Assembly: GCA_026988035.1 (NCBI GenBank)
Contig: JALSLY010000059.1
Location: 1-64,000, forward strand
From: Thermotogae bacterium
Lineage (GTDB): Bacteria > Thermotogota > Thermotogae > Mesoaciditogales > Mesoaciditogaceae
Length of the DNA stretch: 64,000 bases
Direction of reading: 5' to 3'
The translations under genes were made by a program, and so were the position numbers. Position 1 is the stretch's first letter; every line of letters starts with the position of its first letter. Shown piece after piece: positions 539 to 16,495 of the stretch. The notes under the pieces are model-generated. The model saw nothing but the letters and a program-made list of their open reading frames with translations, ran no database searches and had not been told where the DNA came from.

Positions 539-544
539 TATAAT
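539..544 (+). promoter_or_regulatory. Possible -10 box of the Ig-protein operon
   Basis: TATAAT lies about 70 nt upstream of the GTG start of the first envelope gene. No good -35 hexamer is found at 16-18 nt spacing, so it is either weak, activator-dependent, or not the true promoter. Confidence 0.4.
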
Positions 545-613: not shown

Positions 614-3600
614 GTGAAGAAAGTTTCTTTCATTGGGGTGTTCTTTCTGTTGATCGCAGCAGTTTTTGCATTTGCACAAGTTAACCTTATTGTTAATCCC
701 CAAATGCTTCCACCAAAAGCGCCATTTACTGTAATGGTAAATTCAGATCTTAGGAATGTAGTTTCAGTAACTGCGAGTTTTGATGGAACATCTGAAACTT
801 TTGAAAGTGTTCCAGCATCTTTCAGATTCTATGCTCCGAATTTGCCTTCTTGGCAAACAAAAGCATCTACAACAGTTCATGTAACGGTCTTGACTAAAGA
901 TGGAAAAAAGCATTTGGGAAGTGTTACAGTTTACATTTCAGAACATGCCAATCCGGTTATCGTGGTAACACCCAAAATGAAGATCAGTAAGAACTCTTTC
1001 AGCGGTACGGCGGTATTTAATGTCAAAGTCTATGGAGGAATCGGGATACAAAAATTGCAATTCATGGTTGATGGAAATGTTATAAAAACCTGGAGCAATC
1101 CAACTCCTGCCTTACCGTGGATTCATGATTATACTTTTACATTTGGGACGGCTAAAATGCCAAACGGATGGCACACATTCTCAGCAAGGATTATAAACGT
1201 AAATGCCGAGTTGTATTCAAGTCCAAATAGTATCTTATCGTATAAAGTTGACAACAAGCCGCCTTTAGTTAAAATTTTCAAAGTGAGTAAATGTCTTCCA
1301 GCTTCCACAAGTGTTGATATCAAGATCACCGCCGTTTCCACTCTAAGTGGTATATCTTTTGTGAAGATAAATAATAAGAAAGCAAGAAGAGGACCAGAGA
1401 AAAACGAATGGACCTTGAAGCTCACAACGCCGGAAAAAACGGGACCATGGTCTATTTCTGTTGTGGCTGTTGATAACGCTGGCAATATAACGTCTAAGAA
1501 ATTAAATGTTTTTGTTGACGGTTCAAAACCAGAGATAGATATAAAAACCGATGCTCAATATTTTAATAATGTCAAAGGTAAGATTACACTGTGGAGGAAG
1601 AAATCCCCTTTGACTCTCACTGTTTGGGCTTCATCCACAAGTGAACTGTGTGGTATAAAACCGGTTTTCAAAGTTAACGGAAAGTCTCAGGAGTGGAACG
1701 TTTTTCAAACCAGGTTTGCCACAGCAGGAACTTACACCGTATCTATTATTGTCATCGATCCTGTCAATAGGCTTGAGGCATCCACGACTTTGAGGTTTTA
1801 TCTCAAGTTTGACCATCGTCCTCCATCTATAAAATCCATAAAATTTTCATCAAACAAATTTATCAACAACGATGGTTACGTTGTCATCGCTCCCACTTCC
1901 ACGTTGACAGTTACCATCACCGCTAACGATGGAACCGGTGTTGGATTGAAAAACATTACAATTTCTCCAGTAAAGGCTGTGGGAAAGGGAAATACTCGCA
2001 CCTTTTCAATCGCTCAATTGAAATCAGGAAGAAATCTTTATCCTTTAAAAATCACTCTGTGGGATAAATTAAACAATTCTACGACTATATCGACAACATT
2101 GAAGATATGTGTTGATGACGCATCTCCAACATTGTCAGTCACACCCAAAGCATCTCTTTTACATAATGGCATTTATTGGAACAAGACTCATCCATTGATC
2201 CTGAGTGTGAAGTCGATGACGATGTGTGACGTTTTGCCTGTAGTAATAGTTAAAGTCAACGGCGAAGGGGTGTTTAGCGGAAAGGCTACTTCCATTGACG
2301 TTGATTTGACAAAGTCGGGAAATAATTCCGTTTATATCATTAGTACCAATCCTGTCAATGGAAAAACAAATACTCTTAGAAAGACTTACATGGTTGGGTT
2401 TGACAATACGCCTCCAACAATTGAAAGTATTACGCTTCCAGCCACGAAGGGGCCCAGCCAAAGTGCCACAGTTATTGTAAAAGTCACAGATACTGGCATA
2501 GGAATAAAGAGTGTTAAAGTGAATGATGTCAAAGCCACATACTCAAATGGAAAGTATCAAGCGGTTTTAAAAACGCCTGAGTTGAGTAAAAGCGGTTATT
2601 GGACTGTGAAGGTTGTTGCAAAAGATTGGCTTGGGAATCAATCGCAAAAAGATAAAAAGATTTATATCGATGCTCGTTCACCGCAAATAACTTGCAGTCT
2701 CTTTCCAAACAATCACTACAGAAATGGCACTTATTGGACTAAAGGTGGACGTTCCTATGTGCCATTTTATATTAACGTTGTGGTGAAAACAGATTCCGGT
2801 GTTGAGCCAATAGCAACATGTACTCTGAAAAAAGATCAACCAGAATCATCGCCGTCGATGATATTTAATGGAGCTACACTTGTGACAAAATCCGGCGTTT
2901 ATACACTAAAATGCGAAGCGTTGAATCCTATAAATGGAAAGTCCACGGAATGCGCGAAAGAGTACAGACTTGGTTTTGACGGTACACCACCAGTTATTTC
3001 GAATGTAACTTTACCCGCGACGATTGGTCCAGATCAAAACTTTAAAGTTACGGCAAAAGTTGTTGATAGCGGTGGCGGAGTAAAATATGTGAGTGTAAAC
3101 AACAAACTCATGAAGAGGATAGCTCCTCACTCCGATCTTTGGAGTAAAACTCTCATTGCACCATCTTTCAAAAGGAGCAGGAATTTTAATGTCACCATTT
3201 CTGCCATAGATGTGTTTGGAAACAAACGGACATTGTCAAGAAAAGTTTTTGTTGATGTGAATCCGCCGAAGGTAACTCTCTATCTTGTGAGTAGCAACGG
3301 TAAAAAGGTACGCGTCAATCCAAATGGAGTGTATTACTTCAAAAGTAAACCGAAATTGGAATATGTGGCACTCACCGATGGAAAAGTTAAACCCGAAACA
3401 AAAATGTACATGGATTGGACTAAGAAACCAATTTCAAATGGCGCAATGATTTCCGGAACTCACTTCATCAAAGTCGTTTCCACTAATACTATCAATGGGA
3501 AAGTTACAACTGTTAAGGTTGGATTCTCCGTAGTCGTTGATAGTATACCTCCAAAGTTGAATATAGAAGTTCCGAATGTTGTGAATACTTCTTCAAGTGC

Positions 3601-4114
3601 AAACATAAAGTTTTCCATTGAAGATGAGTATTTGAAATACGGATATTTAGTGGTAAAATCCGAAAATGGAGCCATTCTTTACAGTCATGCTTACAATAAA
3701 AGCGGTACAAATACTGTGAATTTAAGACGTGCATTTTCTGGAATAAACGGCAAAAATATTTCGATCGAATTGAGTGCTGTCGATCTTGCCGGGAATCCTT
3801 CGACCGCGAATAAAAAGTACATCTACGTTGATACTGTTCCACCTTACATAAGGAACGTTAACATCACAAAAGATGGCGTTGTTATTATAACTATGAGTGA
3901 ATCCGTACAAGGCAAACCGGAAGTGGTATTGATCTCTTCCAACGGAAAAGAAAAGCTCACTGGAAGTGGCGAAGTGTCCGATAACGAAGTGATTGTGAAT
4001 CAATTTATAGGAGGAAAGATTCAGAGAAATAAAATCTACAAGGTGGAGATTAAAAATGTTACGGACAAAGCGGGAAATACTATTGGAAATAACTTCACAA
4101 ATTGGGCTTTCTAA
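614..4114 (+). CDS. Secreted multi-domain Ig-like repeat protein (1166 aa)
   Basis: An N-terminal signal peptide (KKVSFIGVFFLLIAAVFAFA, then Q) directs export. Ten tandem Ig-like modules follow. Each opens with a D-x-x-P/S-P linker (DNKPP near residue 212, then about 301, 399, 500, 597, 686, 789, 881, 976 and 1073), a period of roughly 90-103 residues. Most carry D-x-x-G-x-x motifs typical of bacterial Ig domains. The last module (ITMSESV through DKAGNTIGN) resembles the SbsA/Big_5 type. No SLH domain, LPXTG motif or C-terminal helix is visible, so attachment must be indirect. GTG at 614 was chosen because AAAGGGGG lies 5-7 nt before it; the in-frame ATG at 596 sits upstream of that site. First of four envelope genes. 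The role (surface layer, sheath or adhesion) is inference. Confidence 0.85.
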   Translation: MKKVSFIGVFFLLIAAVFAFAQVNLIVNPQMLPPKAPFTVMVNSDLRNVVSVTASFDGTSETFESVPASFRFYAPNLPSWQTKASTTVHVTVLTKDGKKHLGSVTVYISEHANPVIVVTPKMKISKNSFSGTAVFNVKVYGGIGIQKLQFMVDGNVIKTWSNPTPALPWIHDYTFTFGTAKMPNGWHTFSARIINVNAELYSSPNSILSYKVDNKPPLVKIFKVSKCLPASTSVDIKITAVSTLSGISFVKINNKKARRGPEKNEWTLKLTTPEKTGPWSISVVAVDNAGNITSKKLNVFVDGSKPEIDIKTDAQYFNNVKGKITLWRKKSPLTLTVWASSTSELCGIKPVFKVNGKSQEWNVFQTRFATAGTYTVSIIVIDPVNRLEASTTLRFYLKFDHRPPSIKSIKFSSNKFINNDGYVVIAPTSTLTVTITANDGTGVGLKNITISPVKAVGKGNTRTFSIAQLKSGRNLYPLKITLWDKLNNSTTISTTLKICVDDASPTLSVTPKASLLHNGIYWNKTHPLILSVKSMTMCDVLPVVIVKVNGEGVFSGKATSIDVDLTKSGNNSVYIISTNPVNGKTNTLRKTYMVGFDNTPPTIESITLPATKGPSQSATVIVKVTDTGIGIKSVKVNDVKATYSNGKYQAVLKTPELSKSGYWTVKVVAKDWLGNQSQKDKKIYIDARSPQITCSLFPNNHYRNGTYWTKGGRSYVPFYINVVVKTDSGVEPIATCTLKKDQPESSPSMIFNGATLVTKSGVYTLKCEALNPINGKSTECAKEYRLGFDGTPPVISNVTLPATIGPDQNFKVTAKVVDSGGGVKYVSVNNKLMKRIAPHSDLWSKTLIAPSFKRSRNFNVTISAIDVFGNKRTLSRKVFVDVNPPKVTLYLVSSNGKKVRVNPNGVYYFKSKPKLEYVALTDGKVKPETKMYMDWTKKPISNGAMISGTHFIKVVSTNTINGKVTTVKVGFSVVVDSIPPKLNIEVPNVVNTSSSANIKFSIEDEYLKYGYLVVKSENGAILYSHAYNKSGTNTVNLRRAFSGINGKNISIELSAVDLAGNPSTANKKYIYVDTVPPYIRNVNITKDGVVIITMSESVQGKPEVVLISSNGKEKLTGSGEVSDNEVIVNQFIGGKIQRNKIYKVEIKNVTDKAGNTIGNNFTNWAF

Positions 4115-4115
4115 G

Positions 4116-5408
4116 ATGGCAAACGTTAAAATTCTTTTGATTGCTGTGCTCATGCTCACGCTGTTTTCTATGGCGTGGGCGCAGCCTTTCGTTGTTCGTT
4201 CAGTAGGATTGGGACCGTCTTTTGAGGTGTATCCAGCAATTGTAATATTAGGAAGAAACGGAACTTTTAAGCTCACTTTTCTTTCGAGCGAAAAAAATGT
4301 CGTGTATGATATTCTAAGGGATGGAAAGACAATATTTTCAAATAATACTAATAAGAAATCTTTGGCACTTAAAATATCTCTTAAGAATGCGTGGTATTCT
4401 TATCTCACGGTCAGAGCCAAAAGCAAGTCCGATCCTTGGAATACTTCTGTAGCAACCATTTTGGTTCTTTCACCCAAAATAAATGTGGATGTGAATAAAG
4501 AAATTTCCATTTGGGCGGTTCCTAAATCTTTTAGTTTGATTTCACCAAGTACGGGAAGTGTTTTCGTGATTGTAAACTCCGCTTTTGGCAGAAAATCCCT
4601 TACGATCTCGTTGGATAAAACTATTCTGATAGACAGGGAACTTTCACCCGTTTCAAATTCTCCAAAAATCTTTGAAGTACCTTTCAGCACAAAAAAACTG
4701 GCAGATGGTGAACATTCACTTAAAGCTAAAATGCTTTTGATTACTGGTATGAAATTAACCGTCGCCGCGACGATAGTTGTTTATATCGCACCACCTGTTG
4801 TTCAATCTTTTGAAGTTTCCCCCAAGGTAGTAAAACCCCAAAAAGTTACATTCACAGCTTCTGTTGTTATAAAAGACGAAGCGGGAGTTAAAAGCGTCAA
4901 GATCAATGGCGTTGCTGCTGATTATAGAGATGGAAAGTGGGTGGCGTTGGTTCCGGTGGATTTTTCAAAAGTTATAGTAAGTGAGGCAACGAATGTGAAT
5001 TTCACGGTAAAAGCTACCAATAATTTTAATAAGTCGGCTGAGAAAAGATTTTCAAGAAAAATTTCTGTTAGAGTAATCCCACCTGTGCCGACAAATTTGC
5101 ACACAACTTCTGTAAGCTACAATTCGATCTCAATTGCGTGGAATGCATCTCCTGGGGCGTCTGATTATAAAATTTACCGCTCGACAAATGGTCAACATTT
5201 TTCTCGGATTGCTGAAACAAGTTCTACAAATTACACAGATAGTAGTCTCAATTTATCTACAACATATTACTACAAAGTAAAGGCAATCAATGCTTATGGA
5301 GAATCAGGCTATTCAAACGTAGTCAAAGCGACCACCTTGTGGATTTGGTGGTGGTTAATTGGGATTTTTGCATCAATCATGGTATTGTTGTTATTCACTA
5401 TCTACTGA
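4116..5408 (+). CDS. Secreted Ig-like/FN3 protein with C-terminal membrane anchor (430 aa)
   Basis: The signal peptide ends at AWA-Q (about residue 22). Beta-rich Ig-like segments follow, with a clear one beginning APPVVQSFEVSPK near residue 227. A fibronectin type III domain spans about 324-408 (N-term VPTNLHTTSV, core SISIAWNASPGASDYKIYR, and YYYKVKAINAYGESGYS). The protein ends in a Trp-rich transmembrane helix (WIWWWLIGIFASIMVLLLF). It therefore looks membrane-tethered, with Ig and FN3 domains outside. The start ATG lies 1 nt after the stop of the preceding gene; an upstream in-frame start would overlap that gene by about 60 nt. Probably co-translated with the large Ig protein and part of the same surface structure (inference). 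Confidence 0.85.
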   Translation: MANVKILLIAVLMLTLFSMAWAQPFVVRSVGLGPSFEVYPAIVILGRNGTFKLTFLSSEKNVVYDILRDGKTIFSNNTNKKSLALKISLKNAWYSYLTVRAKSKSDPWNTSVATILVLSPKINVDVNKEISIWAVPKSFSLISPSTGSVFVIVNSAFGRKSLTISLDKTILIDRELSPVSNSPKIFEVPFSTKKLADGEHSLKAKMLLITGMKLTVAATIVVYIAPPVVQSFEVSPKVVKPQKVTFTASVVIKDEAGVKSVKINGVAADYRDGKWVALVPVDFSKVIVSEATNVNFTVKATNNFNKSAEKRFSRKISVRVIPPVPTNLHTTSVSYNSISIAWNASPGASDYKIYRSTNGQHFSRIAETSSTNYTDSSLNLSTTYYYKVKAINAYGESGYSNVVKATTLWIWWWLIGIFASIMVLLLFTIY

Positions 5409-5429
5409 TAAAGGGGAGGTGTAAGATCG

Positions 5430-5459
5430 TTGAACATTAAAACGATCAAAGTCAAATGA
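5430..5459 (+). CDS. Nine-codon leader ORF coupled to the barrel gene
   Basis: A TTG codon with an ideal GGGGAGGTG site 8 nt upstream (5413-5421) opens a frame of nine codons (L/M-N-I-K-T-I-K-V-K). It stops at TGA, overlapping the ATG of the next gene as ATGA. The real gene has no ribosome binding site of its own, so translation probably passes through this mini-ORF by coupling. The alternative is that the lysine-rich nonapeptide is the true N-terminus and one base was gained or lost in the sequence. Confidence 0.5.
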   Translation: MNIKTIKVK

Positions 5460-5947
5460 GAAAATTTGCTTTAATATCTTTGCTTTTGCTACTATCCTCG
5501 GTTGCGGTTTTCGGAGTTGCATCAATAAACGGAAGTATAGGCATCATAACTTCAACTGCTTCTCCGAATTATGCAATTGGGGTGACGGTCAAATCCCTGG
5601 GAACTATCGGTTTTGAATTAACGGTGGAGGGGAATCTTGGAAGCAATTTTGATTTCAGCAAGGTTGGGAGCATTCAACGATGGAACCTTATGCCTTCTAT
5701 ACTGTTTTCACTTCCAACTGGGGAAATAAGGCCTTACATGGGTGTTGGAATACTTACATGGTATGATATTCCCAATAGTAAGTTTGGCCCTGTCTCATTT
5801 GAACCTCTTTATTACAGAGGAGGAGTGGACGTGTTTTTGAAAGGAGTTGCGTTTTTTGCTGAAGCGCAAGGTACGTTCACTTATCAGCCTAAATGGTCTT
5901 TTAGTGGTATAGATGAATGGAGATTTGGCGTAGGTCTGGCGTTTTAA
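5456..5947 (+). CDS. Small outer-membrane beta-barrel-like protein (163 aa)
   Basis: A signal peptide (MRKFALISLLLLLSSVAVFG) is followed by alternating hydrophobic/polar strands rich in glycine and aromatics (for example IGFELTVEG, IRPYMGVGILTWYD, RRFGVGLAF-like end). The chain ends in phenylalanine, a common C-terminal signature of outer-membrane barrels. At about 140 mature residues it matches a small eight-stranded barrel of the OmpA/OmpW size class. It sits between two Ig-domain genes and may anchor or export them. Start codon overlaps a nine-codon leader ORF (ATGA). No sequence family recognised with certainty. Confidence 0.65.
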   Translation: MRKFALISLLLLLSSVAVFGVASINGSIGIITSTASPNYAIGVTVKSLGTIGFELTVEGNLGSNFDFSKVGSIQRWNLMPSILFSLPTGEIRPYMGVGILTWYDIPNSKFGPVSFEPLYYRGGVDVFLKGVAFFAEAQGTFTYQPKWSFSGIDEWRFGVGLAF

Positions 5948-5948
5948 T

Positions 5949-7367
5949 ATGGAAAAGTTTGTATTTTTTGTCTCCTTGGTGGTGTTGCTTCTTTTGCTGA
6001 CATCTTGTATGCTTGTCAAAGATAACACACCGCCGTCAATAACGAATTTCACAACATCTTCAACGTTGCTTTCGAGAACAAATATATCTTTCAGTGCCGA
6101 TGTGATTGATACGGGAAGTGGAGTTGACAGTGTGGTTTTTGAGATAGATGGTTCTCCACTTCCCACGTCTCAAAAAGGCACATCTGTTTACATATCGAAT
6201 TGGTATGGAGTTTACGGTTCACATCGTGTTACTGTCTTAGCCGAAGATCGCGCTGGCAATTTGGCTACCAAGAAGGATAGTTTTTTTGTTGCTGATTCTA
6301 CTCCCCCGATTGTTAATGTAAAATTTCCTAAAACTGTAGCCGTAGGGGTAAAGTTTCCTATCACGTTGAAAGTTTACGATCTTCAAAGTGGCATTGAATC
6401 AGTTTCGATGACGATCGACGGAGAAAATGTGCCTTTGATATCTGATACAATTGATTGGACATTTTCAAATATAGGAATTCATAAGATCTCGGTTACGGCT
6501 TTTAACGGTCAAGGATTAGTAACAACAAAGAATTTTGAAATAAGTTCGATCAACGCCAGAAATGTCCCACCTTATGTTCAATTTGTGAAGTGGCCAAGTG
6601 TGGTTAAAAGCGGTAAAAGTGCAACTTTTACGGTTTATGCTTACTCTCCAAATGGAATTGGAAAAGTTGGTTTAAAATTCGATAATGTTATTCGTGTTCT
6701 AACGGCTAATCCTGATAACGTTTATACTTTCGTGATAGATGTTCCAAACGTTGGCAATGGCATTTTGCAAGCCACTTGTACCGTTACTGATGGTGTTGGA
6801 ATAAAAAAGACGATTCATGAAGAGATTATGACACTTTCGAAAAACTCGACAGCTAACGTGATCATTCCAAAAATCAGTGTGAAAACCCCCATTGCAAAAA
6901 TACCTTTTTTCGTTGGTACAGTCTCAAAATCCGTTAAAGTTTCCGCCATGGTAGATGGAATACCCGTAGATGTAGAAGGAAGTTTTCCGGAAATGTTTGC
7001 TATTTGTCAATTGACACCTGGAAAGCATACAATTAATGTGATTTTAAATGGAAAAGTATTTGGAAAGGCAATGTTTTCTTCTTTCCTTCCTCCGGTAAAG
7101 ATCATAGGAATTTCTAAGACTTCTACAGAATTAACAGTCGAATTCTCAGGCCAAGTTGAAGCTTATGCAGATCCAGTGTTCGAATTAAGTTTTGGTGCCA
7201 CTTCAACCATTTTAATTAACAAGAGAGACATTATCATTAAGGGAAAAATGGTTTCATTTCCAATTTCTATGATTCCAACTTCGTTTTCTATAAAGGCAAT
7301 TGGATTGAGGGACATTTACGGACGAGTGATAAGTTCTTCTTTTGATATTTCAGAAAGTGCAAAGTGA
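5949..7367 (+). CDS. Ig-like repeat lipoprotein (472 aa)
   Basis: The N-terminus is a lipoprotein signal with lipobox LLTSC; Cys20 would be lipidated. Tandem Ig-like domains follow, opening with DNTPPSITNF (about 26) and DSTPPIVNVKF (about 115) and then more divergent copies around 205 and 295. The repeats resemble those of the 1166-residue protein upstream, including the motif DxAGN (DRAGNLATKK). The gene starts 1 nt after the barrel gene and ends directly before the ATG of the glycosylase gene. A lipid-anchored partner for the larger Ig protein is the natural reading, but no function is known. Confidence 0.8.
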   Translation: MEKFVFFVSLVVLLLLLTSCMLVKDNTPPSITNFTTSSTLLSRTNISFSADVIDTGSGVDSVVFEIDGSPLPTSQKGTSVYISNWYGVYGSHRVTVLAEDRAGNLATKKDSFFVADSTPPIVNVKFPKTVAVGVKFPITLKVYDLQSGIESVSMTIDGENVPLISDTIDWTFSNIGIHKISVTAFNGQGLVTTKNFEISSINARNVPPYVQFVKWPSVVKSGKSATFTVYAYSPNGIGKVGLKFDNVIRVLTANPDNVYTFVIDVPNVGNGILQATCTVTDGVGIKKTIHEEIMTLSKNSTANVIIPKISVKTPIAKIPFFVGTVSKSVKVSAMVDGIPVDVEGSFPEMFAICQLTPGKHTINVILNGKVFGKAMFSSFLPPVKIIGISKTSTELTVEFSGQVEAYADPVFELSFGATSTILINKRDIIIKGKMVSFPISMIPTSFSIKAIGLRDIYGRVISSSFDISESAK

Positions 7368-8036
7368 ATGAGAGAACCTAACGTTCAAGAATTAAAACAT
7401 ATTTTCAGAATATTATTGGATACCTATGGCCCTCAGCACTGGTGGCCAGCGAGTACGCGTTTTGAAATTGCTATTGGAGCTATTCTTGTTCAGAATACGA
7501 TGTGGAGAAATGTGAAGATATCGATCAAAAATCTGGAAAAAGCTGGGCTCTTGGAACCTTACAGAATGTATGTGGCTTCTTCTGAAAAAATAGCAAATGC
7601 CATTAAGACATCTGGCTTTCCAAGGCTCAAAACAGATCGTCTTAGAAATTTTCTAAAGTTTTTTGAGAATTTTTCATTTGACTTTGATGAAATGGATAAA
7701 TTGGAAACGGATTCATTGCGGAAGTCATTATTATCAGTGAACGGCATCGGCAAGGAAACAGCCGATTCTTTGTTGTTATACATTTTTAACCGCCCTACAC
7801 TTATAGTTGATGCTTACACAAAACGATTTTTTCTGAGATTGGGATATTCACCTTTATCTTTTAAAGAAAAAGGCAAATCGCAGCTCATGAATGCACTTAA
7901 AAATGATCCAAGTGAGCTTGGGGAATTTCATGCACTTGTAGTTCAGCATTCAAAAGCATATTGTAGAACAAAGCCACTTTGTGATAAATGCCCGCTGAGT
8001 AGTATATGCGAGTTTGGCGGTGCATATTATGATTAG
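7368..8036 (+). CDS. EndoIII-related / MagIII-type DNA glycosylase (222 aa)
   Basis: HhH-GPD base-excision glycosylase with an iron-sulfur cluster. The helix-hairpin-helix reads VNGIGKETAD (about 124-133) and the catalytic Asp is in VDAYTKR (about 147). C-terminal Cys199, 205, 208 and 214 form a C-x5-C-x2-C-x5-C cluster loop. In true endonuclease III the residue after GVGR is the lyase Lys; here it is Glu (GIGKE), as in the monofunctional MagIII-like 3-methyladenine glycosylases. The protein should therefore excise alkylated bases without beta-lyase activity (inference). ATG follows the lipoprotein stop with no gap, so expression is probably coupled. Confidence 0.85.
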   Translation: MREPNVQELKHIFRILLDTYGPQHWWPASTRFEIAIGAILVQNTMWRNVKISIKNLEKAGLLEPYRMYVASSEKIANAIKTSGFPRLKTDRLRNFLKFFENFSFDFDEMDKLETDSLRKSLLSVNGIGKETADSLLLYIFNRPTLIVDAYTKRFFLRLGYSPLSFKEKGKSQLMNALKNDPSELGEFHALVVQHSKAYCRTKPLCDKCPLSSICEFGGAYYD

Positions 8037-8631
8037 TGAACACTATTTTTCTAAGAAGCCAACAAGTGAGATCGTGGAAAAGGTTTTTGAAATAAAAATA
8101 GATGGATCTAAAATAAAATTTACGACTGTGAGCGGCGTTTTTTCTTTTGGAAAACCAGATCGCGCTTCTTTGATTTTGCTTAAGAATTTTCCGAATTTTT
8201 CTGGAGATATTTTGGATCTTGGATGTGGATATGGATTGATAGGGATAACTTTGAAAGTTACGAGACCCGCTCTCAACGTTTTTATGAGTGATGTTAATGA
8301 GCGAGCAATCAGATATGCCCGAATAAACGCCAAAAACAACAATGCTACAGTTACAATTGTCGAAGGGGATGGTTTGTCACCGTGGAAAGGGCGTCTTTTT
8401 GATTCCATTGTTTTAAATCCTCCTATTTCAGCTGGGAAAAAAGTCTGGGTGAATTTGATCTTTCAAGCACGTGAGCATCTCAAAAATGAAGGAGCACTTG
8501 TGTGTGTAGGATTTCACAACAAAGCTGGAAAAACTGTAGAAAGAGAAATGAAAGAAATATTTGGTAACGTGTTAACACTTGTGAAAAGTGGCGGAGTTAG
8601 AGTTTACATGTCAAGGAGGGCTAATGAGTGA
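8029..8631 (+). CDS. Class I SAM methyltransferase, RsmC/RlmG-like (200 aa)
   Basis: Small-methyltransferase domain. The SAM-binding motif ILDLGCGYGLIG sits near residues 61-72 and the catalytic NPPI motif near 130, which is typical of N-methylation of exocyclic amines in RNA guanines or glutamine. The N-terminal HYFSKKPTS is a hallmark of single-domain RsmC-like proteins. Target is probably rRNA guanine (inference from family). Start ATG overlaps the preceding gene by 8 nt, with GGCGGTG upstream; an earlier TTG is less well placed. Confidence 0.8.
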   Translation: MISEHYFSKKPTSEIVEKVFEIKIDGSKIKFTTVSGVFSFGKPDRASLILLKNFPNFSGDILDLGCGYGLIGITLKVTRPALNVFMSDVNERAIRYARINAKNNNATVTIVEGDGLSPWKGRLFDSIVLNPPISAGKKVWVNLIFQAREHLKNEGALVCVGFHNKAGKTVEREMKEIFGNVLTLVKSGGVRVYMSRRANE

Positions 8632-9440
8632 TAAAGTTTGATAGAGTGTATTTTCAATATGATAATTTGCCTGTCCTTAAAAATATAGATCTCGAAATTG
8701 TGGAAGGGGAGCTCATCGTGCTCCTTGGCTTGAATGGCTCAGGGAAAACCTCTCTTTTTAAAATGATAAACGGCCTTCTTAAACCATCTTCTGGAAAAGT
8801 GTTTGTTGATGGAATGGATACGAAGGAGGAGGCGCTTTTATGGGAAATAAGAAAAAAGGTGGGAATGATTTTTCAAAATCCTGAGAGCCAAATTGTTGGA
8901 ACTACGGTAGAAGAAGACATTGCCTTTGGTATGGAGAATATAGGTGTTCCGCGAGATGAGATGATAGGAAGAGTGGATCAAGTTTTAAATTTTGTAAAGA
9001 TGAGTGAGCTCAAGCATGTTGAACCCCATCGCCTTTCAGGAGGGCAAAAACAGCTTCTTTGCATTGCTTCAACTTTGGCTATGCATCCAAAATATATGGT
9101 GATGGATGAGCCGACTTCCATGATAGATCCAATCAGTCGTGAAAACATTCTCAAAACTATTGTTGATCTTCACAGACTCGGAAAAACTGTTCTTTTTTCC
9201 ACACATATCTTGGATGAGATAGTTATTGCTCCAAGGGTGATTTATTTGAGAAATGGAAAGATCGTTTTCGACGGTTCTCCGATTGAGGTGATCAATTCAG
9301 TAAGAGAAGAATTCGGAACGTCTGATTTTATAGAGTTTCAATCCGATCTTTGTCGCCGTGGAATCATAGATCATTTCATGGACGTTGAAAAATTGAGCGA
9401 AAGGCTGGTGGATCTTTGCCAATCCTCTTTGAAGAAGTAA
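8628..9440 (+). CDS. ecfA1: ECF transporter ATP-binding protein A1 (270 aa)
   Basis: ABC ATPase of an energy-coupling factor importer for vitamins or metal ions. Walker A is GLNGSGKTS (about 35-43), Q-loop FQNPESQIVGTTVEEDIAFG (characteristic of EcfA/CbiO), signature LSGGQKQ (about 136), Walker B YMVMDEPTSMID with the usual Glu, and switch His in FSTHILDE. GTG start overlaps the methyltransferase stop by 4 nt, behind AAGGAGGG. Forms a pair with the next gene. No EcfT membrane subunit or S component lies nearby, so these must be encoded elsewhere. Confidence 0.9.
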   Translation: MIKFDRVYFQYDNLPVLKNIDLEIVEGELIVLLGLNGSGKTSLFKMINGLLKPSSGKVFVDGMDTKEEALLWEIRKKVGMIFQNPESQIVGTTVEEDIAFGMENIGVPRDEMIGRVDQVLNFVKMSELKHVEPHRLSGGQKQLLCIASTLAMHPKYMVMDEPTSMIDPISRENILKTIVDLHRLGKTVLFSTHILDEIVIAPRVIYLRNGKIVFDGSPIEVINSVREEFGTSDFIEFQSDLCRRGIIDHFMDVEKLSERLVDLCQSSLKK

Positions 9441-10255
9441 AATATGTATACGATCCTCGTACACCATTTGAGAAAGAGGCTCTCAATAATATCAATCTGA
9501 AGATTTCAGAGGGTGAATTCGTTACAATACTTGGTAAAACAGGCTCCGGAAAGTCTACACTTCTTCAACTCATGAATGGTATCCTAAAGCCATCTTCTGG
9601 AACAGTCAGTGTTGACAAGATTTTGACGTCGAGAAATGATGACTCAATTTTCAACATTAGAAGAAGAGTAGGACTGGTTTTTCAATATCCTGAACATCAA
9701 TTTTTTGAAGAGAATGTCTTCAAAGAAATAGCTTTTGGACCTAAGAACTTTGGTGTTGAAGCTAACGAGCTAAATCGTGTTGTCTTAGAGGCAGTGGAGA
9801 TGGTAGGTTTACCAAGAACTGTGTTGAGCAAATCTCCTTTCAATCTCTCCGGTGGAGAAAAACGCAAAGTAGCGATTGCCTCTGTTATCTCGTGTAACCC
9901 CAAATATCTTGTTTTTGATGAGCCAACATCGGGATTGGATCCAGTAAGTGTAAATTTATTCTTTGATATGGTGAAAAGGTTCAGAAAATTTGGAAAGACC
10001 ATTATTATTGTTACCCATTCTGTGAAAGAAGCGATTCAGAATTCTGAAAGAATAATTGTCATGACAAAAGGTCAAATTGTCTTTGACGGGGATATTCAAA
10101 CATTTATAAAATCTAAGAAGTTGATAGAATGGGGAATGTTGCCTCCTCCTCTTTACAGATTAGCTTGGAAAATAAAGGAAAAAGTTGATGATTTTGATAT
10201 CAAGGACGATAGGTTATCCGAAGCTGTAAGCCTACTGAAAAGCATGATAAATTGA
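9416..10255 (+). CDS. ecfA2: ECF transporter ATP-binding protein A2 (279 aa)
   Basis: Second EcfA-type ATPase, expected to heterodimerise with the product of the overlapping upstream gene. The N-terminal VKYVYDPRTPFEKEAL insertion is typical of EcfA2. Walker A GKTGSGKST (about 40-48), Q-loop FQYPEHQFFEENVFKEIAFGP, signature LSGGEKR (about 143), Walker B YLVFDEPTSGLDP, switch VTHS. TTG start lies 25 nt inside ecfA1, indicating tight coupling. The C-terminal extension (SLLKSM) is short. A transporter core (EcfT) would normally follow but adenine phosphoribosyltransferase comes next. Confidence 0.9.
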   Translation: MPILFEEVKYVYDPRTPFEKEALNNINLKISEGEFVTILGKTGSGKSTLLQLMNGILKPSSGTVSVDKILTSRNDDSIFNIRRRVGLVFQYPEHQFFEENVFKEIAFGPKNFGVEANELNRVVLEAVEMVGLPRTVLSKSPFNLSGGEKRKVAIASVISCNPKYLVFDEPTSGLDPVSVNLFFDMVKRFRKFGKTIIIVTHSVKEAIQNSERIIVMTKGQIVFDGDIQTFIKSKKLIEWGMLPPPLYRLAWKIKEKVDDFDIKDDRLSEAVSLLKSMIN

Positions 10256-10274
10256 TACAGCTGTCATGATTTGT

Positions 10275-10282
10275 GATATGAT
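10275..10282 (+). promoter_or_regulatory. Extended -10 promoter before apt
   Basis: TGATATGAT (extended -10, TATGAT at 10277-10282) lies about 60 nt before apt. A TTGATA at 10252 is 19 nt upstream, a long spacer. It would separate apt-pgi from the ecfA operon. Confidence 0.45.
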
Positions 10283-10342
10283 AACTTTAGTTAAAATACT
10301 TCGATATGTTGATTCGAAATCTAAACCAAGAAGGAGTGCAGT

Positions 10343-10861
10343 GTGGAAATGGATTTGAAGTCTTACATAAGGGATATACCTGACTTTCCAACTGAAGGTG
10401 TGATCTTCAAAGATATCACCCCGCTTTTGAGAAATCCAAAGGCTTTTTCATTCGCAATTGATAAAATGTCTGAGTTGGTTAGTGAATTCAAGCCAGATAT
10501 AATCGTTGCTGCAGAGGCACGTGGGTTTATTTTCGCATCTTCTATAGCGTATAAGCTTGGTGTTGGATTTGCTCCAATAAGAAAACCTGGGAAACTTCCT
10601 TATTTTACGGTTAACGAAGAGTATTATCTCGAGTACGCAAAAGAGAAAATAGAAATACACGTCGATGCCATAGATCCGGATGAAAATGTTGTTGTTGTTG
10701 ATGATATACTTGCTACAGGTGGTACTGCATTAGCTATGGCACATCTGGTTGAAAAACTCGGTGGAATAGTTTCTGGTATGATTTTTCTTGGAGAACTGAG
10801 TTTTTTGAAACCGAGAGAAAAATTGAGAGGTTACGATGTTAAAAGTGTCATAACTTACTGA
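10343..10861 (+). CDS. apt: Adenine phosphoribosyltransferase (172 aa)
   Basis: Purine salvage: adenine plus PRPP to AMP. The family is recognised from DFPTEGVIFKDITPLL near the N-terminus, AAEARGFIF, and the PRPP-binding loop VVVVDDILATGGTA (about 115-128). Length is the usual 170-180 residues. GTG at 10343 was chosen because AAGGAG ends 6 nt before it; the ATG two codons later is too far (12 nt). Next gene pgi begins with its ribosome binding site right behind the stop codon. Confidence 0.95.
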   Translation: MEMDLKSYIRDIPDFPTEGVIFKDITPLLRNPKAFSFAIDKMSELVSEFKPDIIVAAEARGFIFASSIAYKLGVGFAPIRKPGKLPYFTVNEEYYLEYAKEKIEIHVDAIDPDENVVVVDDILATGGTALAMAHLVEKLGGIVSGMIFLGELSFLKPREKLRGYDVKSVITY

Positions 10862-10875
10862 ATGGGGGATTGAAA

Positions 10876-12246
10876 TTGAAGTTTGATTTTACAAATGCCG
10901 TTGGAACTAATGTAGAAGGTGGCGTATCTATTGAAAGTATAAAATCCATAACTGGGAAACTTCATGATTTTTTAGAATCTTTTCGACAAAGCCCTCCAGG
11001 ATTTGTTAAGGTTTTGAGCAGTTCATCTGAGCTAAACAAAGTACTTGAATTCGCAGAAAAATATAGGAAATTTCAGAATTTTGTTGTTGTGGGCATAGGG
11101 GGTTCTGCACTCGGCATTCAAGCCATTCAAGGAGCTCTCCTTCCTCTTGGATGGAATTCATTGAATAGTGAAAAACGTAATCAACACCCACGTCTTTTTG
11201 TTCTGGATAACGTTGATCCAGAGTACACCACCTCTATATTAGAAACCCTTGATTTATCTGAGACCGTGTTCAACGTCATAAGTAAGTCAGGTTCGACCGC
11301 AGAAACCATGGCCAATTACATGGTTGTAAGGGGACTTCTTGAATCACACAGAATAGACCCAAAATCTCATATTATTTTTACCACAGACCCTAATGAGGGA
11401 GCTTTGAGAAAGATCTCCATAGACGAAGAAATTCCAAGTCTTGAAATACCCTCAAATGTGGGTGGAAGATTCAGTGTGTTAACACCTGTTGGGCTCATGA
11501 GTTCAGCTATTACTGGGATAGATATTGAATCTCTGATCAGCGGTGCCAAAGAATCGATATCTTCTTTCCTTTCTCAGGATGATACGCTTAAGAATCCAGT
11601 TCTTTTTAACGCAGCGGTTCACTACCTTTATTCAAAGATGGGTAAGAGAATATCTGTCATGATGTCTTACTCAAATGCGCTTTACACACTCGCCGATTGG
11701 TATCGTCAACTTTGGGCTGAATCTCTCGGCAAAGAAAGAACGCTGACAGGGGAAGTGATAAATGCAGGTCAGACTCCTGTTAAAGCTTTGGGTACTATAG
11801 ACCAGCATTCTCAAGTACAGCTGTATATGGAAGGTCCAAACGATAAAATAATAACTTTTCTCAAAGTGAACAAATTCAGGAAAAAGATCACGATTCCGAA
11901 AATTCATGGGGATCGAAAGGAGTTTTCTTACCTTGGAGGCGCTGATATGTCAGAGTTGATAAACATTGAGCAAGAAGCCACCGCACTTGCGCTTTTGGAA
12001 AAAGGAAGACCGAATTTAACTGTAATTTTTGATGAAATCAACGCATTTGAGGTTGGAAGATTTTTCGGCTATTATGAATCACTTGTAACAGCCATGGGAT
12101 ATCTTTATGGAATTAACACCTTCGATCAGCCAGGAGTTGAACTTGGAAAGCTTAATACCTATGCGCTTATGAAAAAAGAGGGATATGAGTCACAGCGCGA
12201 ACATATTGAGGAAATAAAAGGAAAACTGAAATCTTTCATCATGTGA
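10876..12246 (+). CDS. pgi: Glucose-6-phosphate isomerase (456 aa)
   Basis: Interconverts glucose-6-phosphate and fructose-6-phosphate in the cytoplasm. Sugar-phosphate-binding motifs: VVGIGGSALGIQAIQ (about 71-86), ISKSGSTAETM (about 135), NVGGRFSVLTPVG (about 193) and QLWAESLGKE (about 278). Length matches the short Bacillus/Thermotoga type of about 450 residues. TTG at 10876 gives a 7-nt spacing from GGGGG; the TTG at 10870 would have only one base. Provides the upper glycolytic step; fba lies further along the window. Confidence 0.95.
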   Translation: MKFDFTNAVGTNVEGGVSIESIKSITGKLHDFLESFRQSPPGFVKVLSSSSELNKVLEFAEKYRKFQNFVVVGIGGSALGIQAIQGALLPLGWNSLNSEKRNQHPRLFVLDNVDPEYTTSILETLDLSETVFNVISKSGSTAETMANYMVVRGLLESHRIDPKSHIIFTTDPNEGALRKISIDEEIPSLEIPSNVGGRFSVLTPVGLMSSAITGIDIESLISGAKESISSFLSQDDTLKNPVLFNAAVHYLYSKMGKRISVMMSYSNALYTLADWYRQLWAESLGKERTLTGEVINAGQTPVKALGTIDQHSQVQLYMEGPNDKIITFLKVNKFRKKITIPKIHGDRKEFSYLGGADMSELINIEQEATALALLEKGRPNLTVIFDEINAFEVGRFFGYYESLVTAMGYLYGINTFDQPGVELGKLNTYALMKKEGYESQREHIEEIKGKLKSFIM

Positions 12247-12259
12247 GGAGATGATCTGT

Positions 12260-13564
12260 TTGAGCGTGTGGACCTTTAAAGGAGGTGTGCATCCTCTAAC
12301 TAAGAAATTTGGGAGAAAGGCTTCAATTGAGAAGATGCCGATTCCGCAGAGAGTGCATCTTTTCATTGCGCAAAATCTTGGCAAACCTCCTAAAGCTATT
12401 GTTGAAGTGGGAATGGAAGTAAAAACAGGGCAAAAAATTGCTGAAGCGGACGGATTTGTTTCGGTACCATTGCATTCTCCTGTAACCGGGCGTGTTGTGG
12501 AAATAAAAAAGCAAAAGCATCCGGTGACTTCTCGGCCAGCGGAAGTAATAGTAATTGAAACGACAGGTGATGATGAGTGGATAAAGCTTAATCCTGCTAA
12601 GCCTTATGAACAATTCACACCGGAGGAAATCGTAAAGCGTGCTCAAGAAGCAGGACTTGTAGGAATGGGTGGAGCAACTTTTCCAACGCATGTGAAATTG
12701 TCGCCATCCAAAAAAGTTGACATATTGATACTAAATGGCGCAGAATGCGAACCATATTTGACGATTGACGATAGGGTAATGGTGGAATTTTCAGAAGAGA
12801 TAATAAAGGGTGGACTTGCTTTTGCAAAAGCGATAGGAGTAAAAGAGATACTCATTGGAATAGAAGAAAATAAACCATCTGCGATTGACGCTATGAAGCG
12901 TGTTGGTGGACCATTGGGAATAGACGTGCTCAAGCTGACGACAAAGTATCCGCAAGGTTCTGAAAAACACCTCATATATGCAATGACAAAGCGCATTGTT
13001 CCATCTGGTGGACTTCCAATGGATATTGGGGTTGTAGTTCAAAATGTTTCAACTGCTCGTGCAATGTATCGCGCGCTTGAGCTTGGAGAGCCTCTTATTG
13101 AAAGAGGTTTGAGCATTACCGGCGAAGGTGTTGAGACTCCCAAAAACGTGATCGCAAGAATTGGAGCACCTGTATCAGAACTTCTTGATTTTTCAAAGGT
13201 AAAGGATGAAGCATCTCGCGTTATATTGGGTGGACCTATGATGGGAATCGCGGTCAACGTCCTCGATATTGGGATAATGAAAGGAACTTCTGGCATAACG
13301 GTTTTGACTGACAATGTTGTGAAAAAAGGCACAGAAACAAATTGTATTGGATGTGCAATGTGTGTTAGAGCATGTCCAATGGGGTTAGAGCCATATTTAC
13401 TTTACAAGATGTTTAAAAAGAGGAGATTTAACGATATGATGGACACTCATTTGATGGATTGTATAGAATGTGGTGCATGTGCCTACGTTTGTCCGTCAAA
13501 TATAGACCACGTTAAAGCATTTAAGACAGCGAAAAATGTAATAAGAGCTCTCAGGAGGCGATAA
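12260..13564 (+). CDS. rnfC: Rnf complex subunit RnfC (434 aa)
   Basis: Peripheral NADH-interacting subunit of the Rnf ferredoxin:NAD+ oxidoreductase, which couples electron transfer to Na+ or H+ translocation. N-terminal FKGGVHPLTKK and barrel-sandwich region (VPLHSPVTGRVV), a flavin/NADH-binding Rossmann part (EAGLVGMGGATFPTHVKL, NGAECEPYLTIDDRVM), SLBB region, then two 4Fe-4S motifs: CIGCAMCVRACPMG (about 361) and CIECGACAYVCPS (about 400). TTG at 12260 lies 9 nt behind GAGGAG; the ATG at 12251 abuts that site. First gene of rnfCDGEAB. Confidence 0.95.
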   Translation: MSVWTFKGGVHPLTKKFGRKASIEKMPIPQRVHLFIAQNLGKPPKAIVEVGMEVKTGQKIAEADGFVSVPLHSPVTGRVVEIKKQKHPVTSRPAEVIVIETTGDDEWIKLNPAKPYEQFTPEEIVKRAQEAGLVGMGGATFPTHVKLSPSKKVDILILNGAECEPYLTIDDRVMVEFSEEIIKGGLAFAKAIGVKEILIGIEENKPSAIDAMKRVGGPLGIDVLKLTTKYPQGSEKHLIYAMTKRIVPSGGLPMDIGVVVQNVSTARAMYRALELGEPLIERGLSITGEGVETPKNVIARIGAPVSELLDFSKVKDEASRVILGGPMMGIAVNVLDIGIMKGTSGITVLTDNVVKKGTETNCIGCAMCVRACPMGLEPYLLYKMFKKRRFNDMMDTHLMDCIECGACAYVCPSNIDHVKAFKTAKNVIRALRRR

Positions 13565-13566
13565 AC

Positions 13567-14556
13567 ATGAAACTAACTCTTGCACCCGCTCCGCACATAC
13601 ATTCTCCATTTTCTACGAGAAGAATAATGATTGATGTCTTGATTGCTCTCATTCCCGCTGGCATCTTAGCTGTTTTAATGTGGGGATGGTACATGCTTGT
13701 TCTTGAAATTGGATCGATGGTTTTGGCAGAACTTCTCGAATTTTTTATCATGCGTGTTTTTTTAAAGAGAAAGAATTTTTGGCCCGATGGTTCTGCAGCT
13801 GTGACTGGTCTTCTTTTAGCATTCAACGTTCCAGCAGGTATTCCATGGTGGATGTTAATGGTTGGTGTCTTTATTGCAGTGGTTGTTGGGAAAGAAGTTT
13901 ATGGTGGAATTGGGAATAATCCTTTCAATCCAGCACTTGTCGGTAGACTTTTTATGTACATATCATTTCCGGTTGCAATGACTACTTGGCCAAAGGTGGA
14001 TTGGTTGAATTTCAGTCGTGCCGCTTTTAATCTTCAAACTACCGCAACTCCACTGAACGTTATAAAATTGCACGGAGTTACTGCCGCCCTACAGAAGTTT
14101 CACAATCTACCATTGAATTCTTTTTTAGGCATTATCCCAGGCTCTCCTGGAGAGATGAGCGTTGTCGCTCTCGTTGGTGGGTTTCTTTACCTATGGTGGC
14201 GTGGTATTGTGTCTTACGAAATACCAGCAGCGTATATAGGGACAACTTTTATCCTCTCGGCACTTTTTTGGATGGCTAACCCTTCAGCATATATCGATCC
14301 GGTAACTGCAATAATGCTTGGTGGTGTGATGCTTGGAGCACTTTTCATGGCAACGGATCCGGTTACAAGTCCCGTTACTGCCAAAGGTAAATGGATATTC
14401 GGAATAGGCTGTGGTGTTATAACTGTTTTGATACGTTATATTGGTGCTTATCCTGAAGGTGTGAATTTTGCCATACTTCTGATGAATGCGCTTGTTCCCT
14501 TTATAAACCAAATTGCCAAGCCAAGGGTTTTTGGGGTGGTGAGGAAAAATGGGTAA
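13567..14556 (+). CDS. rnfD: Rnf complex subunit RnfD (329 aa)
   Basis: Integral membrane subunit of the NqrB/RnfD family, with about nine to ten hydrophobic helices. The N-terminal LAPAPHIHS and GKEVYGGIGNNPFNPALVGR are family hallmarks. FMN is attached covalently through Thr in the family motif [S/T]-x-A-T-P; here TTATPL gives Thr161. Starts 2 nt after rnfC behind GGAGG and overlaps rnfG by 8 nt. Confidence 0.95.
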   Translation: MKLTLAPAPHIHSPFSTRRIMIDVLIALIPAGILAVLMWGWYMLVLEIGSMVLAELLEFFIMRVFLKRKNFWPDGSAAVTGLLLAFNVPAGIPWWMLMVGVFIAVVVGKEVYGGIGNNPFNPALVGRLFMYISFPVAMTTWPKVDWLNFSRAAFNLQTTATPLNVIKLHGVTAALQKFHNLPLNSFLGIIPGSPGEMSVVALVGGFLYLWWRGIVSYEIPAAYIGTTFILSALFWMANPSAYIDPVTAIMLGGVMLGALFMATDPVTSPVTAKGKWIFGIGCGVITVLIRYIGAYPEGVNFAILLMNALVPFINQIAKPRVFGVVRKNG

Positions 14557-15265
14557 ATATATCAAGACTGCGTTGATTTTAGCTTCTTTGATGATAGTAA
14601 TTGGCATTATTCTTGGTCTGGTTTATATGGCCACAGAAAAAGCTATGGCGAAGGCTGATTTGAATGCTAAGCTCTCGGCAATAAAATTTGTTCTTACCAA
14701 TCCTCGAACAGGAAAACTTCTTGTAAGTGAAAACCAAATTCCCACAACTCTTGCAGAACTCGATTTGAAGATATGGAAGTCAAGCCGTTCGGGAATACTT
14801 TACAGTGATCCCAAATACCCGGGGTTTGTACTCTCACCAGTATACCGATTTTTGGGTAAGAATGGTGAAAAAATATATGTTCTTACTGGTTTTGGAGTCG
14901 GGTTTGGCGGAAGGGTTGTCACAGTCGCTGGATTTGTACAGCAAAAAAGTGGGTTTTATGAGAATGCGATAGATGTCACCGATTATTCAAATGAAACTCC
15001 CGGCATGGGGGCCAAAATAAATGATCCTGATATAAGAAGACGTTTTTTCTCGATACCGAATTCGGGCTTTGAAAAGGGATTAAAAGTAAACAAAGATGCT
15101 TTTCTTTTTCCTCTTCCAGCAGGTTATCTTTCTAAGCTCAGCCAGTACAAAAAGAAAGGGATTGTCGTTACGAGTGATGTTATGACAGGTGCAACGATAA
15201 CCCCGCGTGCAGTTGTCAATACGCTTAACGCTATGTATGATTTCCTCGAAAAGGAGGCGAAATAA
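14549..15265 (+). CDS. rnfG: Rnf complex subunit RnfG (238 aa)
   Basis: Membrane-anchored subunit with one N-terminal helix (IKTALILASLMIVIGIILGLVYMA) and an extracytoplasmic FMN-binding domain. Motifs: FGVGFGGRVVTVAGF, NETPGMGAKI and the flavinylation site MTGATITPRA, in which Thr216 should carry FMN through a phosphoester bond. Overlaps rnfD by 8 nt and rnfE by 1 nt. The covalent flavin requires an ApbE flavin transferase, which is not in this window. Confidence 0.95.
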   Translation: MGKYIKTALILASLMIVIGIILGLVYMATEKAMAKADLNAKLSAIKFVLTNPRTGKLLVSENQIPTTLAELDLKIWKSSRSGILYSDPKYPGFVLSPVYRFLGKNGEKIYVLTGFGVGFGGRVVTVAGFVQQKSGFYENAIDVTDYSNETPGMGAKINDPDIRRRFFSIPNSGFEKGLKVNKDAFLFPLPAGYLSKLSQYKKKGIVVTSDVMTGATITPRAVVNTLNAMYDFLEKEAK

Positions 15266-15897
15266 TGGCGGATAGCAGAGGTAATTTCTCAAATTTTGGG
15301 ATATTCACTGCAGGTTTGATACGTCAAAATCCAACCTTTGCTCAAATCCTTGGCCTTTGCCCAACTTTGGCAACATCAACAACGGCAGAGAATGCACTTG
15401 GAATGGGGCTTGCGACGTTTATTGTGCTTGTTGCTTCAAATTTCTTCATATCTATGATAAGAAAACTGATACCTACCGAGATAAGAATCCCAGCGTACAT
15501 TGCCGTTATAGCTTCTTTTGTAACGGTTATCGATCTTTTCATGCATGGATATACTTATCAAATGTGGAAAACTTTGGGTCTTTACATACCATTAATAGTT
15601 GTCAACTGTATAATTATGGGACGTGCTGAGTCTTTTGCTTCTAAGAACGGGATGTTCAAGTCTCTACTTGACGGTCTCGGAATGGGATTTGGCTTCATAG
15701 GGGCAATATTGCTTTTAGGAATAACGCGCGAACTTTTTGGTAGTGGTACGATTTTTGGGTACACGGTCTGGGCAAAAAGTTACGAAGTTTTTGTTTTTGT
15801 CCTCCCACCAGGAGCTTTTCTGGTTATAGGATTTTACTTGGCGCTTTTTCATTATATTGGAAGCAGGAAAAAAGCAAAATCAACCAAGAAAGCTTAA
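15265..15897 (+). CDS. rnfE: Rnf complex subunit RnfE (210 aa)
   Basis: Integral membrane protein of the NqrD/RnfE family. Six hydrophobic helices; N-terminal GLIRQNPTFAQILGLCPTLATST is the family signature with the half-channel Cys that, in related complexes, helps ligate an intramembrane iron centre together with RnfA. Also GLYIPLIVVNCIIMGRAESFAS carries the second Cys. The start overlaps the stop of rnfG (TAATG). Confidence 0.95.
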   Translation: MADSRGNFSNFGIFTAGLIRQNPTFAQILGLCPTLATSTTAENALGMGLATFIVLVASNFFISMIRKLIPTEIRIPAYIAVIASFVTVIDLFMHGYTYQMWKTLGLYIPLIVVNCIIMGRAESFASKNGMFKSLLDGLGMGFGFIGAILLLGITRELFGSGTIFGYTVWAKSYEVFVFVLPPGAFLVIGFYLALFHYIGSRKKAKSTKKA

Positions 15898-15910
15898 GGA
15901 GATGAGCTAA

Positions 15911-16495
15911 ATGGACTTTTCCAAGCTTTTGGCTTTAATGTTTGTAGCAATGCTGGTAAACAATTTCTTGCTCACGAGATTCCTCGGACTTTGTCCTTTC
16001 TTTGGTGTTTCGAAGAAAATGGATACGGCTGTTGGAATGTCTATGGGAGTTATTTTTGTTATGGTTGTTGCAGGAGTGATCACGTGGTTTTTGAATCTTC
16101 TTCTCATTGCTTGGCATGTTGAATTTTTGCAAATACTGACTTTCATACTTGTTATAGCAGCTCTTGTACAATTGATAGAACTATTTTTGAAGAAGACGAA
16201 TCCAACACTTTATAGCGCGCTTGGAATATACCTCCCTCTTATAACAACAAACTGTGCCATTCTTGGCCTTGTTCTCATAAACGCTGGGGCAAATTACACA
16301 CTTATGGAAACATTTTTCAATTCTCTTGGTTCGGCTTTAGGTTATGCGTTGGCTCTTATTCTTTTCTCGTCCTTAAGAGGAAGATTGGACATAAACGAAC
16401 TTCCAGCTGCTTTTGATGGAATGCCGGCGGCATTCATAACCGCGTTCATTTTGTCGATGAGTTTTGAGGCTTTTGTAGGAATAATAAAGGTGTGA
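15911..16495 (+). CDS. rnfA: Rnf complex subunit RnfA (194 aa)
   Basis: Integral membrane protein paralogous to RnfE but in inverted topology (NqrE/RnfA family). The N-terminal LVNNFLLTRFLGLCPFFGVSKK and the central GIYLPLITTNCAILG contain the paired Cys that ligate the membrane iron-sulfur centre in characterised complexes. Six helices. Ribosome binding site AAGGAGATGAG lies about 5-9 nt before ATG. Confidence 0.95.
   Translation: MDFSKLLALMFVAMLVNNFLLTRFLGLCPFFGVSKKMDTAVGMSMGVIFVMVVAGVITWFLNLLLIAWHVEFLQILTFILVIAALVQLIELFLKKTNPTLYSALGIYLPLITTNCAILGLVLINAGANYTLMETFFNSLGSALGYALALILFSSLRGRLDINELPAAFDGMPAAFITAFILSMSFEAFVGIIKV

Follow-up and report, generated by a model that had tools for sequence, protein, structure and literature searches.

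A conserved four-gene set in Mesoaciditogaceae (Thermotogota), probably encoding one cell-surface assembly, and the recurrent pairing of its barrel gene with lipoprotein genes

The window, i.e., the whole stretch of 64,000 nucleotides that was analysed, corresponds to contig JALSLY010000059.1 (G000:C59) of a Thermotogae bacterium of the family Mesoaciditogaceae, from its first base onward. Close to its beginning lie four genes, designated here P1 to P4, and three candidate control elements:

539–544, forward strand: candidate −10 box TATAAT, 5' of P1, without a good −35 box
614–4114, forward strand: P1, 1166 amino acids, GTG start; signal peptide and about 12 tandem β-sandwich (Ig-like) domains
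4116–5408, forward strand: P2, 430 amino acids; signal peptide, Ig-like domains, FN3 domain (residues 325–405) and C-terminal hydrophobic helix (residues ~408–426)
5413–5421, forward strand: Shine-Dalgarno-like (SD) sequence GGGGAGGTG, 34 nt before the ATG of P3 (5456)
5425–5447, forward strand: 7-bp RNA hairpin GATCGTT/AACGATC, between the SD sequence and the ATG of P3
5456–5947, forward strand: P3, 163 amino acids; predicted 8-stranded outer-membrane β-barrel with terminal Phe
5949–7367, forward strand: P4, 472 amino acids; lipoprotein (lipobox Cys20) with Ig-like domains

The genes are separated by 1, 47 and 1 nt, in agreement with the preliminary description of this DNA, which had listed the same four open reading frames with spacings of 1 to about 50 nt. 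Each of the four proteins begins with a signal-peptide-like segment. Pfam matches were to Ig-like families in P1 and P4 and to fn3 in P2; the family cut-offs were exceeded by P1 for Big_3_3 (score 42.1, cut-off 27) and Big_13 (34.8, cut-off 27) and by P4 for Big_7 (37.9, cut-off 24.1). The domain-family search gave no match of P1–P4 to SLH or sortase families, as had also been stated before, and Rfam and tRNA searches of the window found nothing.

P1 is probably the first gene of the set, because it is preceded by the TATAAT box and a GGGG-type ribosome binding site (AGGGGG, just 5' of the start) and begins with GTG. The box was present 5' of P1 in eight of nine orthologous loci, followed in all nine by a GGGG-type site and a GTG start; a promoter scan which demands both hexamers does not list the box at 539–544. 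The DNA 5' of P1 in genome G009 (L059:12238–12400) includes a stretch that resembles the 3' part of a tRNA (TTCGATTCCCGTCGCCTCCACCA), unlike that of all other orthologues. At the other end, P4 abuts the next gene (7368) with zero gap, and the transcript may therefore continue into housekeeping genes; the designation as an operon, used previously, holds insofar as the four genes are conserved as a unit, whereas their transcript may run past P4. The nearly gapless run of housekeeping genes at 7368–16495 (endonuclease III-like, methyltransferase, two ABC ATPases, phosphoribosyltransferase, sugar-phosphate isomerase-like and further genes) was kept in three genera, not in genus g2.

Five genomes, from two genera, have the hairpin in the leader of P3, with 35 of 35 stem cells paired, including G-U changes; two-sided compensatory change was absent among the five genomes, the folding energy was significant in one genome only, and the hairpin is missing from genera g2 and g4. 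It may bring the SD sequence to a short effective spacing, by analogy with phage T4 genes 38 and 25, where the same layout of SD, hairpin and AUG brings SD and AUG to a working distance (PMC3014915), and is regarded here as a lead. The whole segment of SD, hairpin and ATG (5413–5459) might act in a thermophile as a switch for translation.

A domain parse of P1 gave about 12 β-domains, starting approximately at residues 22, 113, 213, 302, 403, 507, 602, 686, 789, 881, 976 and 1073. Two are N-terminal, nine are of A or B type, and one is C-terminal, the terminal domains belonging to types other than A and B. Type A comprises domains 3, 5 (a divergent A), 7, 9 and, weakly, 11, and type B domains 4, 6, 8 and 10; domains 3–10 thus form four alternating A/B dyads. 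In module-against-module comparisons the strongest A–A z-scores were 12–18, B–B scores were 6–10 except 4–10, and A–B scores were mostly near zero (highest 4.5). Ten Ig modules of ~95 residues had been proposed for this protein; the exported Ig-repeat protein was recovered, with about 12 domains instead of ten and a pair of domains as the repeat unit. An AlphaFold2 model was all-β throughout (pLDDT 79.5), and its low pTM is expected for a flexible chain. With an Ig-like domain being about 4 nm long, the rod of about 12 domains is estimated at about 40–50 nm. P1 measured 1141–1166 amino acids in eight of nine orthologues, despite identities of 31–49%; in G009 it is one dyad (~190 amino acids) shorter and lacks residues 434–620 of P1. 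The missing segment starts within A-module 5 and ends at the equivalent position of A-module 7, the outcome expected of unequal recombination between A modules.

The profile of P1 matched 2yn3 (E = 1.5 × 10−4), which we take to be Salmonella SiiE, and a Foldseek search with the P1 model matched the grappling-hook protein GhpA (9flp); the latter search was discarded as a clue to function, since it matches any long Ig chain. P1 thus shares a long Ig-like chain with tandem bacterial Ig adhesins, by matches generic to such chains, and is unlike them in its Sec signal peptide and in having partners in the same operon. Two very large exported proteins with lipobox-like starts are encoded in the same genome, one of 1969 amino acids (L064:1922–7831), with modules related to the C-terminal part of P1, and one of more than 1850 amino acids (L171:13943–19501), with FN3-like modules.

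The Ig-like regions of P2 were recognised from the alignment and from cross-hits. The description of P2 as a membrane-anchored Ig/FN3 protein was upheld for the anchor, a C-terminal hydrophobic stretch of ~20 residues being present in all ten orthologues, and has to be narrowed for FN3, which is limited to the genus of the window (3 of 10); the orthologues in g2 are shorter, with about 325–331 amino acids. P2 may be an inner-membrane anchor, as suggested earlier, or may sit in the outer membrane, as the tail of toga OmpA, which is of the same type, may do. In P4, the cysteine (Cys20) of the lipobox L[ST]SC, a predicted lipidation site, was invariant in 10/10 orthologues, as would suit the lipid anchor suggested earlier; the C-terminal domain is missing in some of them. 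Within the same genomes the P1 profile matched P2 and P4, and the P2 profile matched P1; these cross-matches would fit Ig–Ig contacts.

In the AlphaFold2 model of P3 (pLDDT 89.9), the signal helix is followed by eight strands. Its best Foldseek matches were OmpW, the OmpA barrel, NspA and OmpX (E = 8.7 × 10−6 to about 10−3), and all 13 matches with E ≤ 0.001 were small outer-membrane or designed barrels, in line with the β-barrel outer-membrane element postulated before. The sequence profile alone found OmpW (E = 0.003); the cut-off of the OmpW family PF03922 was not reached, with only 2 of 17 members matching at all (best E = 0.042). The terminal Phe163 was invariant in Mesoaciditogaceae and present in 16/17 rows of alignment A7. 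P3 is therefore like the 8-stranded barrels of the OmpW/OmpA/OmpX/NspA type (2f1t, 1qjp, 1p4t) in fold, size and terminal aromatic β-signal, and unlike the OmpW/OmpA class in its identity of ~15%, its scores below every Pfam cut-off and its recurrent gene pairing with a lipoprotein. An 8-stranded barrel is too narrow for export of P1.

Ten genomes from four genera of Mesoaciditogaceae were compared, among them G007, whose contig starts inside P1, less than 40 residues from its end; the order P1–P2–P3–P4 was kept in nine of nine testable genomes. Conserved order in relatives had been named as a check in the preliminary description, and its outcome is favourable. The genes 3' of P4, from the endonuclease III-like gene onward, are shared with the window in three genera; in g2 they are entirely different (alaS-like in G001 and G002, others in G003 and G004), and the genes upstream of the quartet also differ from those of the window. 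Since the order is intact while the flanks differ among three groups, the quartet is a unit. P2 is 25–57% identical to its orthologues (25–34% between genera), and this divergence, together with the unrelated flanks in g2, argues for retention of the order beyond chance; judging from the gene neighbourhoods, simple lack of rearrangement fails to explain four genes together in at least three contexts.

Among 103 Thermotogota genomes, profiles of P1, P2 and P4 found no full-length relatives outside Mesoaciditogaceae and matched there only pieces of other Ig proteins. A P4 pattern scan of 84,980 species genomes, which is limited to sequences that contain the selected peptides, returned eight loci, all from Mesoaciditogaceae, including Mesoaciditogaceae/Mesoaciditoga assemblies and Athalassotoga saccharophila NAS-01. 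Ig proteins of 830–1700 amino acids in other Thermotogota families were rejected as orthologous operons, there being no barrel, P2 or P4 arrangement nearby. The combination of the P1–P4 domains in conserved order was absent from the literature searched, which is weak evidence given the search coverage. The domain types were already known; apparently new are their combination with conserved order and the pairing of barrel and lipoprotein genes.

Concerning this pairing, the P3 profile found weak relatives in other Thermotogota families. In the first eight outside loci (families f4, f10 and f11) the barrel gene lies directly 5' of a gene for a vWA lipoprotein of ~355 amino acids, and 16 of 16 additional loci (f6 and f9) whose upstream DNA was available have a P3/A6-family barrel immediately upstream of the vWA lipoprotein, at −52 to +22 nt; the count is without two loci that end before the upstream gene. 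These loci (L154–L161 and L199–L215), from five Thermotogota families, were undescribed in the papers searched, and a search of the literature on Thermosipho vWA lipoproteins likewise yielded nothing. The profile of the vWA lipoprotein had some match in 51 of 103 genomes, with strong matches in six other families and a single weak one in Mesoaciditogaceae (G005). From 1023 frames of the fetched loci, an HMM of P3 only picked at E < 10−3 solely the pairing barrels and P3 itself; hhalign of P3 with two outside barrel sets gave 98.7%, from shallow alignments, and 96.9%. Similarity among small barrels can be partly generic.

Within Mesoaciditogaceae, paralogues of P3 (G001, G007) adjoin a different vWA lipoprotein of 207 amino acids; at L217:2162–3281 and L218:405–1563 this second P3-like barrel and its lipoprotein occur with the lipoprotein gene first. 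A third P3-like paralogue (G006) is without a lipoprotein neighbour, and in G039 (f7) the gene after the barrel encodes a lipoprotein with carboxypeptidase-regulatory/prealbumin-like β-sandwich domains. A relationship of P4 to the vWA lipoproteins was considered and rejected, as the signal peptide alone aligns. Because most of these barrels have a lipoprotein gene beside them, whose ectodomain is swapped for other interaction folds, a dedicated barrel–lipoprotein pair is suggested, and P3–P4 would be best read as a barrel–lipoprotein presentation pair, on top of which Mesoaciditogaceae built an Ig-rod system. It is possible, in our estimate rather less than probable, that Thermotogota have a general surface-presentation module, consisting of a small barrel and a lipoprotein with swapped ectodomain (vWA, Ig, or other β-sandwich), which became a dedicated surface fibre in Mesoaciditogaceae through the addition of the Ig rod, made of dyads, and of a holder anchored by its tail. 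Caution is counselled by OmpA–RcsF, where the site on OmpA to which the lipoprotein binds is the periplasmic domain and not the barrel (PMC7553776).

A link of the quartet to the toga, as proposed in the preliminary description, was not borne out. A toga-type locus with a tyrS-like ORF, an SLH protein and a β-rich ORF is situated on a different contig (G000:C31, ~17.8 kb; L180, L182), the SLH protein of this type of locus having 347–348 amino acids and a hydrophobic tail; a second SLH ORF (314 amino acids) occurs at G000:C84. Since tyrS–ompA–ompB-like genes lie elsewhere, identity of the quartet with the toga genes was rejected; the synteny secG–tyrS–ompA–ompB is not seen at the quartet, nor the hallmark of toga OmpA1, SLH plus coiled coil, P1–P4 being without SLH match and P1 all-β Ig-like. 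With OmpA1 (Omp-α) and OmpB (Omp-β) of Thermotoga, from the same phylum, the quartet has in common that a rod, a C-terminal hydrophobic tail and a barrel are encoded side by side, and a tail like the ~20-residue anchor of OmpA1 is present in all ten P2 proteins, a resemblance of layout, not homology. It differs from the toga pair by an Ig rod instead of SLH plus coiled coil, by tail and rod on separate proteins, by the small 8-strand barrel and by the added lipoprotein. Deinococcus, a deep-branching diderm, has in SlpA and its accessory lipoprotein DR_0644 likewise a barrel, a long periplasmic rod and a lipoprotein (PMC9388160); SlpA, in contrast to the quartet, is a single chain with a 30-stranded barrel and SLH/coiled coil, without an Ig rod.

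P1–P4 probably represent one previously undescribed cell-surface assembly. More specifically, and with somewhat less than even confidence, we infer its location and function as follows: the assembly would be associated with the outer membrane, where P3 and P4 would form a dedicated barrel–lipoprotein pair, the local version of the phylum-wide one; P4 and P2 would hold the P1 rod by Ig–Ig contacts; and P1 would be exposed on the outer membrane or farther out, where it would serve adhesion or contact with other cells or a matrix. It should be kept in mind that vWA and Ig domains are common in non-adhesive proteins too. Exit through the outer membrane may be possible for P1, since secretin genes are present in the genome or family and Omp85 genes in the family.

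The main rival, which we consider unlikely on balance, is a periplasmic strut or spacer formed by P1. P1 has no recognisable T1SS, autotransporter, T9SS or sortase feature and no other sequence evidence for crossing of the outer membrane, and without a known secretion signal it could be periplasmic; its nearly constant length at low identity would also suit a spacer, as would the resemblance of its estimated 40–50 nm to the toga–membrane distance of ~50 nm set by OmpA1 (PMC3387000). This is opposed by the presence of SLH/OmpA-type genes in Mesoaciditogaceae and by the lack of any membrane or cell-wall anchor in P1 itself. Replacement of OmpA by P1 as spacer is weakened by G009, whose P1 lost a dyad while its SLH ORF, with 345 amino acids, kept the usual length, so that the two lengths do not scale together.

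Capture of nutrients or glycans appears improbable, although the toga of Thermotogota carries hydrolases (PMC3387000). The Ig/FN3 proteins would then bind surface polysaccharide, with the barrel as a small channel, in principle after the manner of SusCD. Modules of the Ig/FN3 kind are frequently found with glycan enzymes, and the nearest fold of P3, OmpW, is a small channel, but the quartet contains no catalytic or recognised carbohydrate-binding domain, and no transporter is conserved with it across contexts. Similarly little probability is given to four exported proteins which share a promoter and act separately, with slow rearrangement and translational coupling as the reasons why their order persists. 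Overlapping or abutting genes do favour retention, and Ig proteins are numerous in Mesoaciditogaceae genomes; however, the flanks were exchanged around an intact quartet in three genomic contexts, and barrels of the P3 type retain a lipoprotein neighbour even when the lipoprotein is non-homologous.

The envelope of Thermotogota is known mainly from OmpA1 and OmpB. The quartet, read as an outer-membrane-associated assembly, would be a second conserved multi-protein outer-membrane set, confined to the deepest-branching family. If true, the phylum-wide barrel–lipoprotein pair with swappable ectodomains would provide candidates for the delivery or holding of lipoproteins at this unusual outer membrane, and quartet and pair together would offer concrete, testable candidates for components that decorate the toga or organise it.
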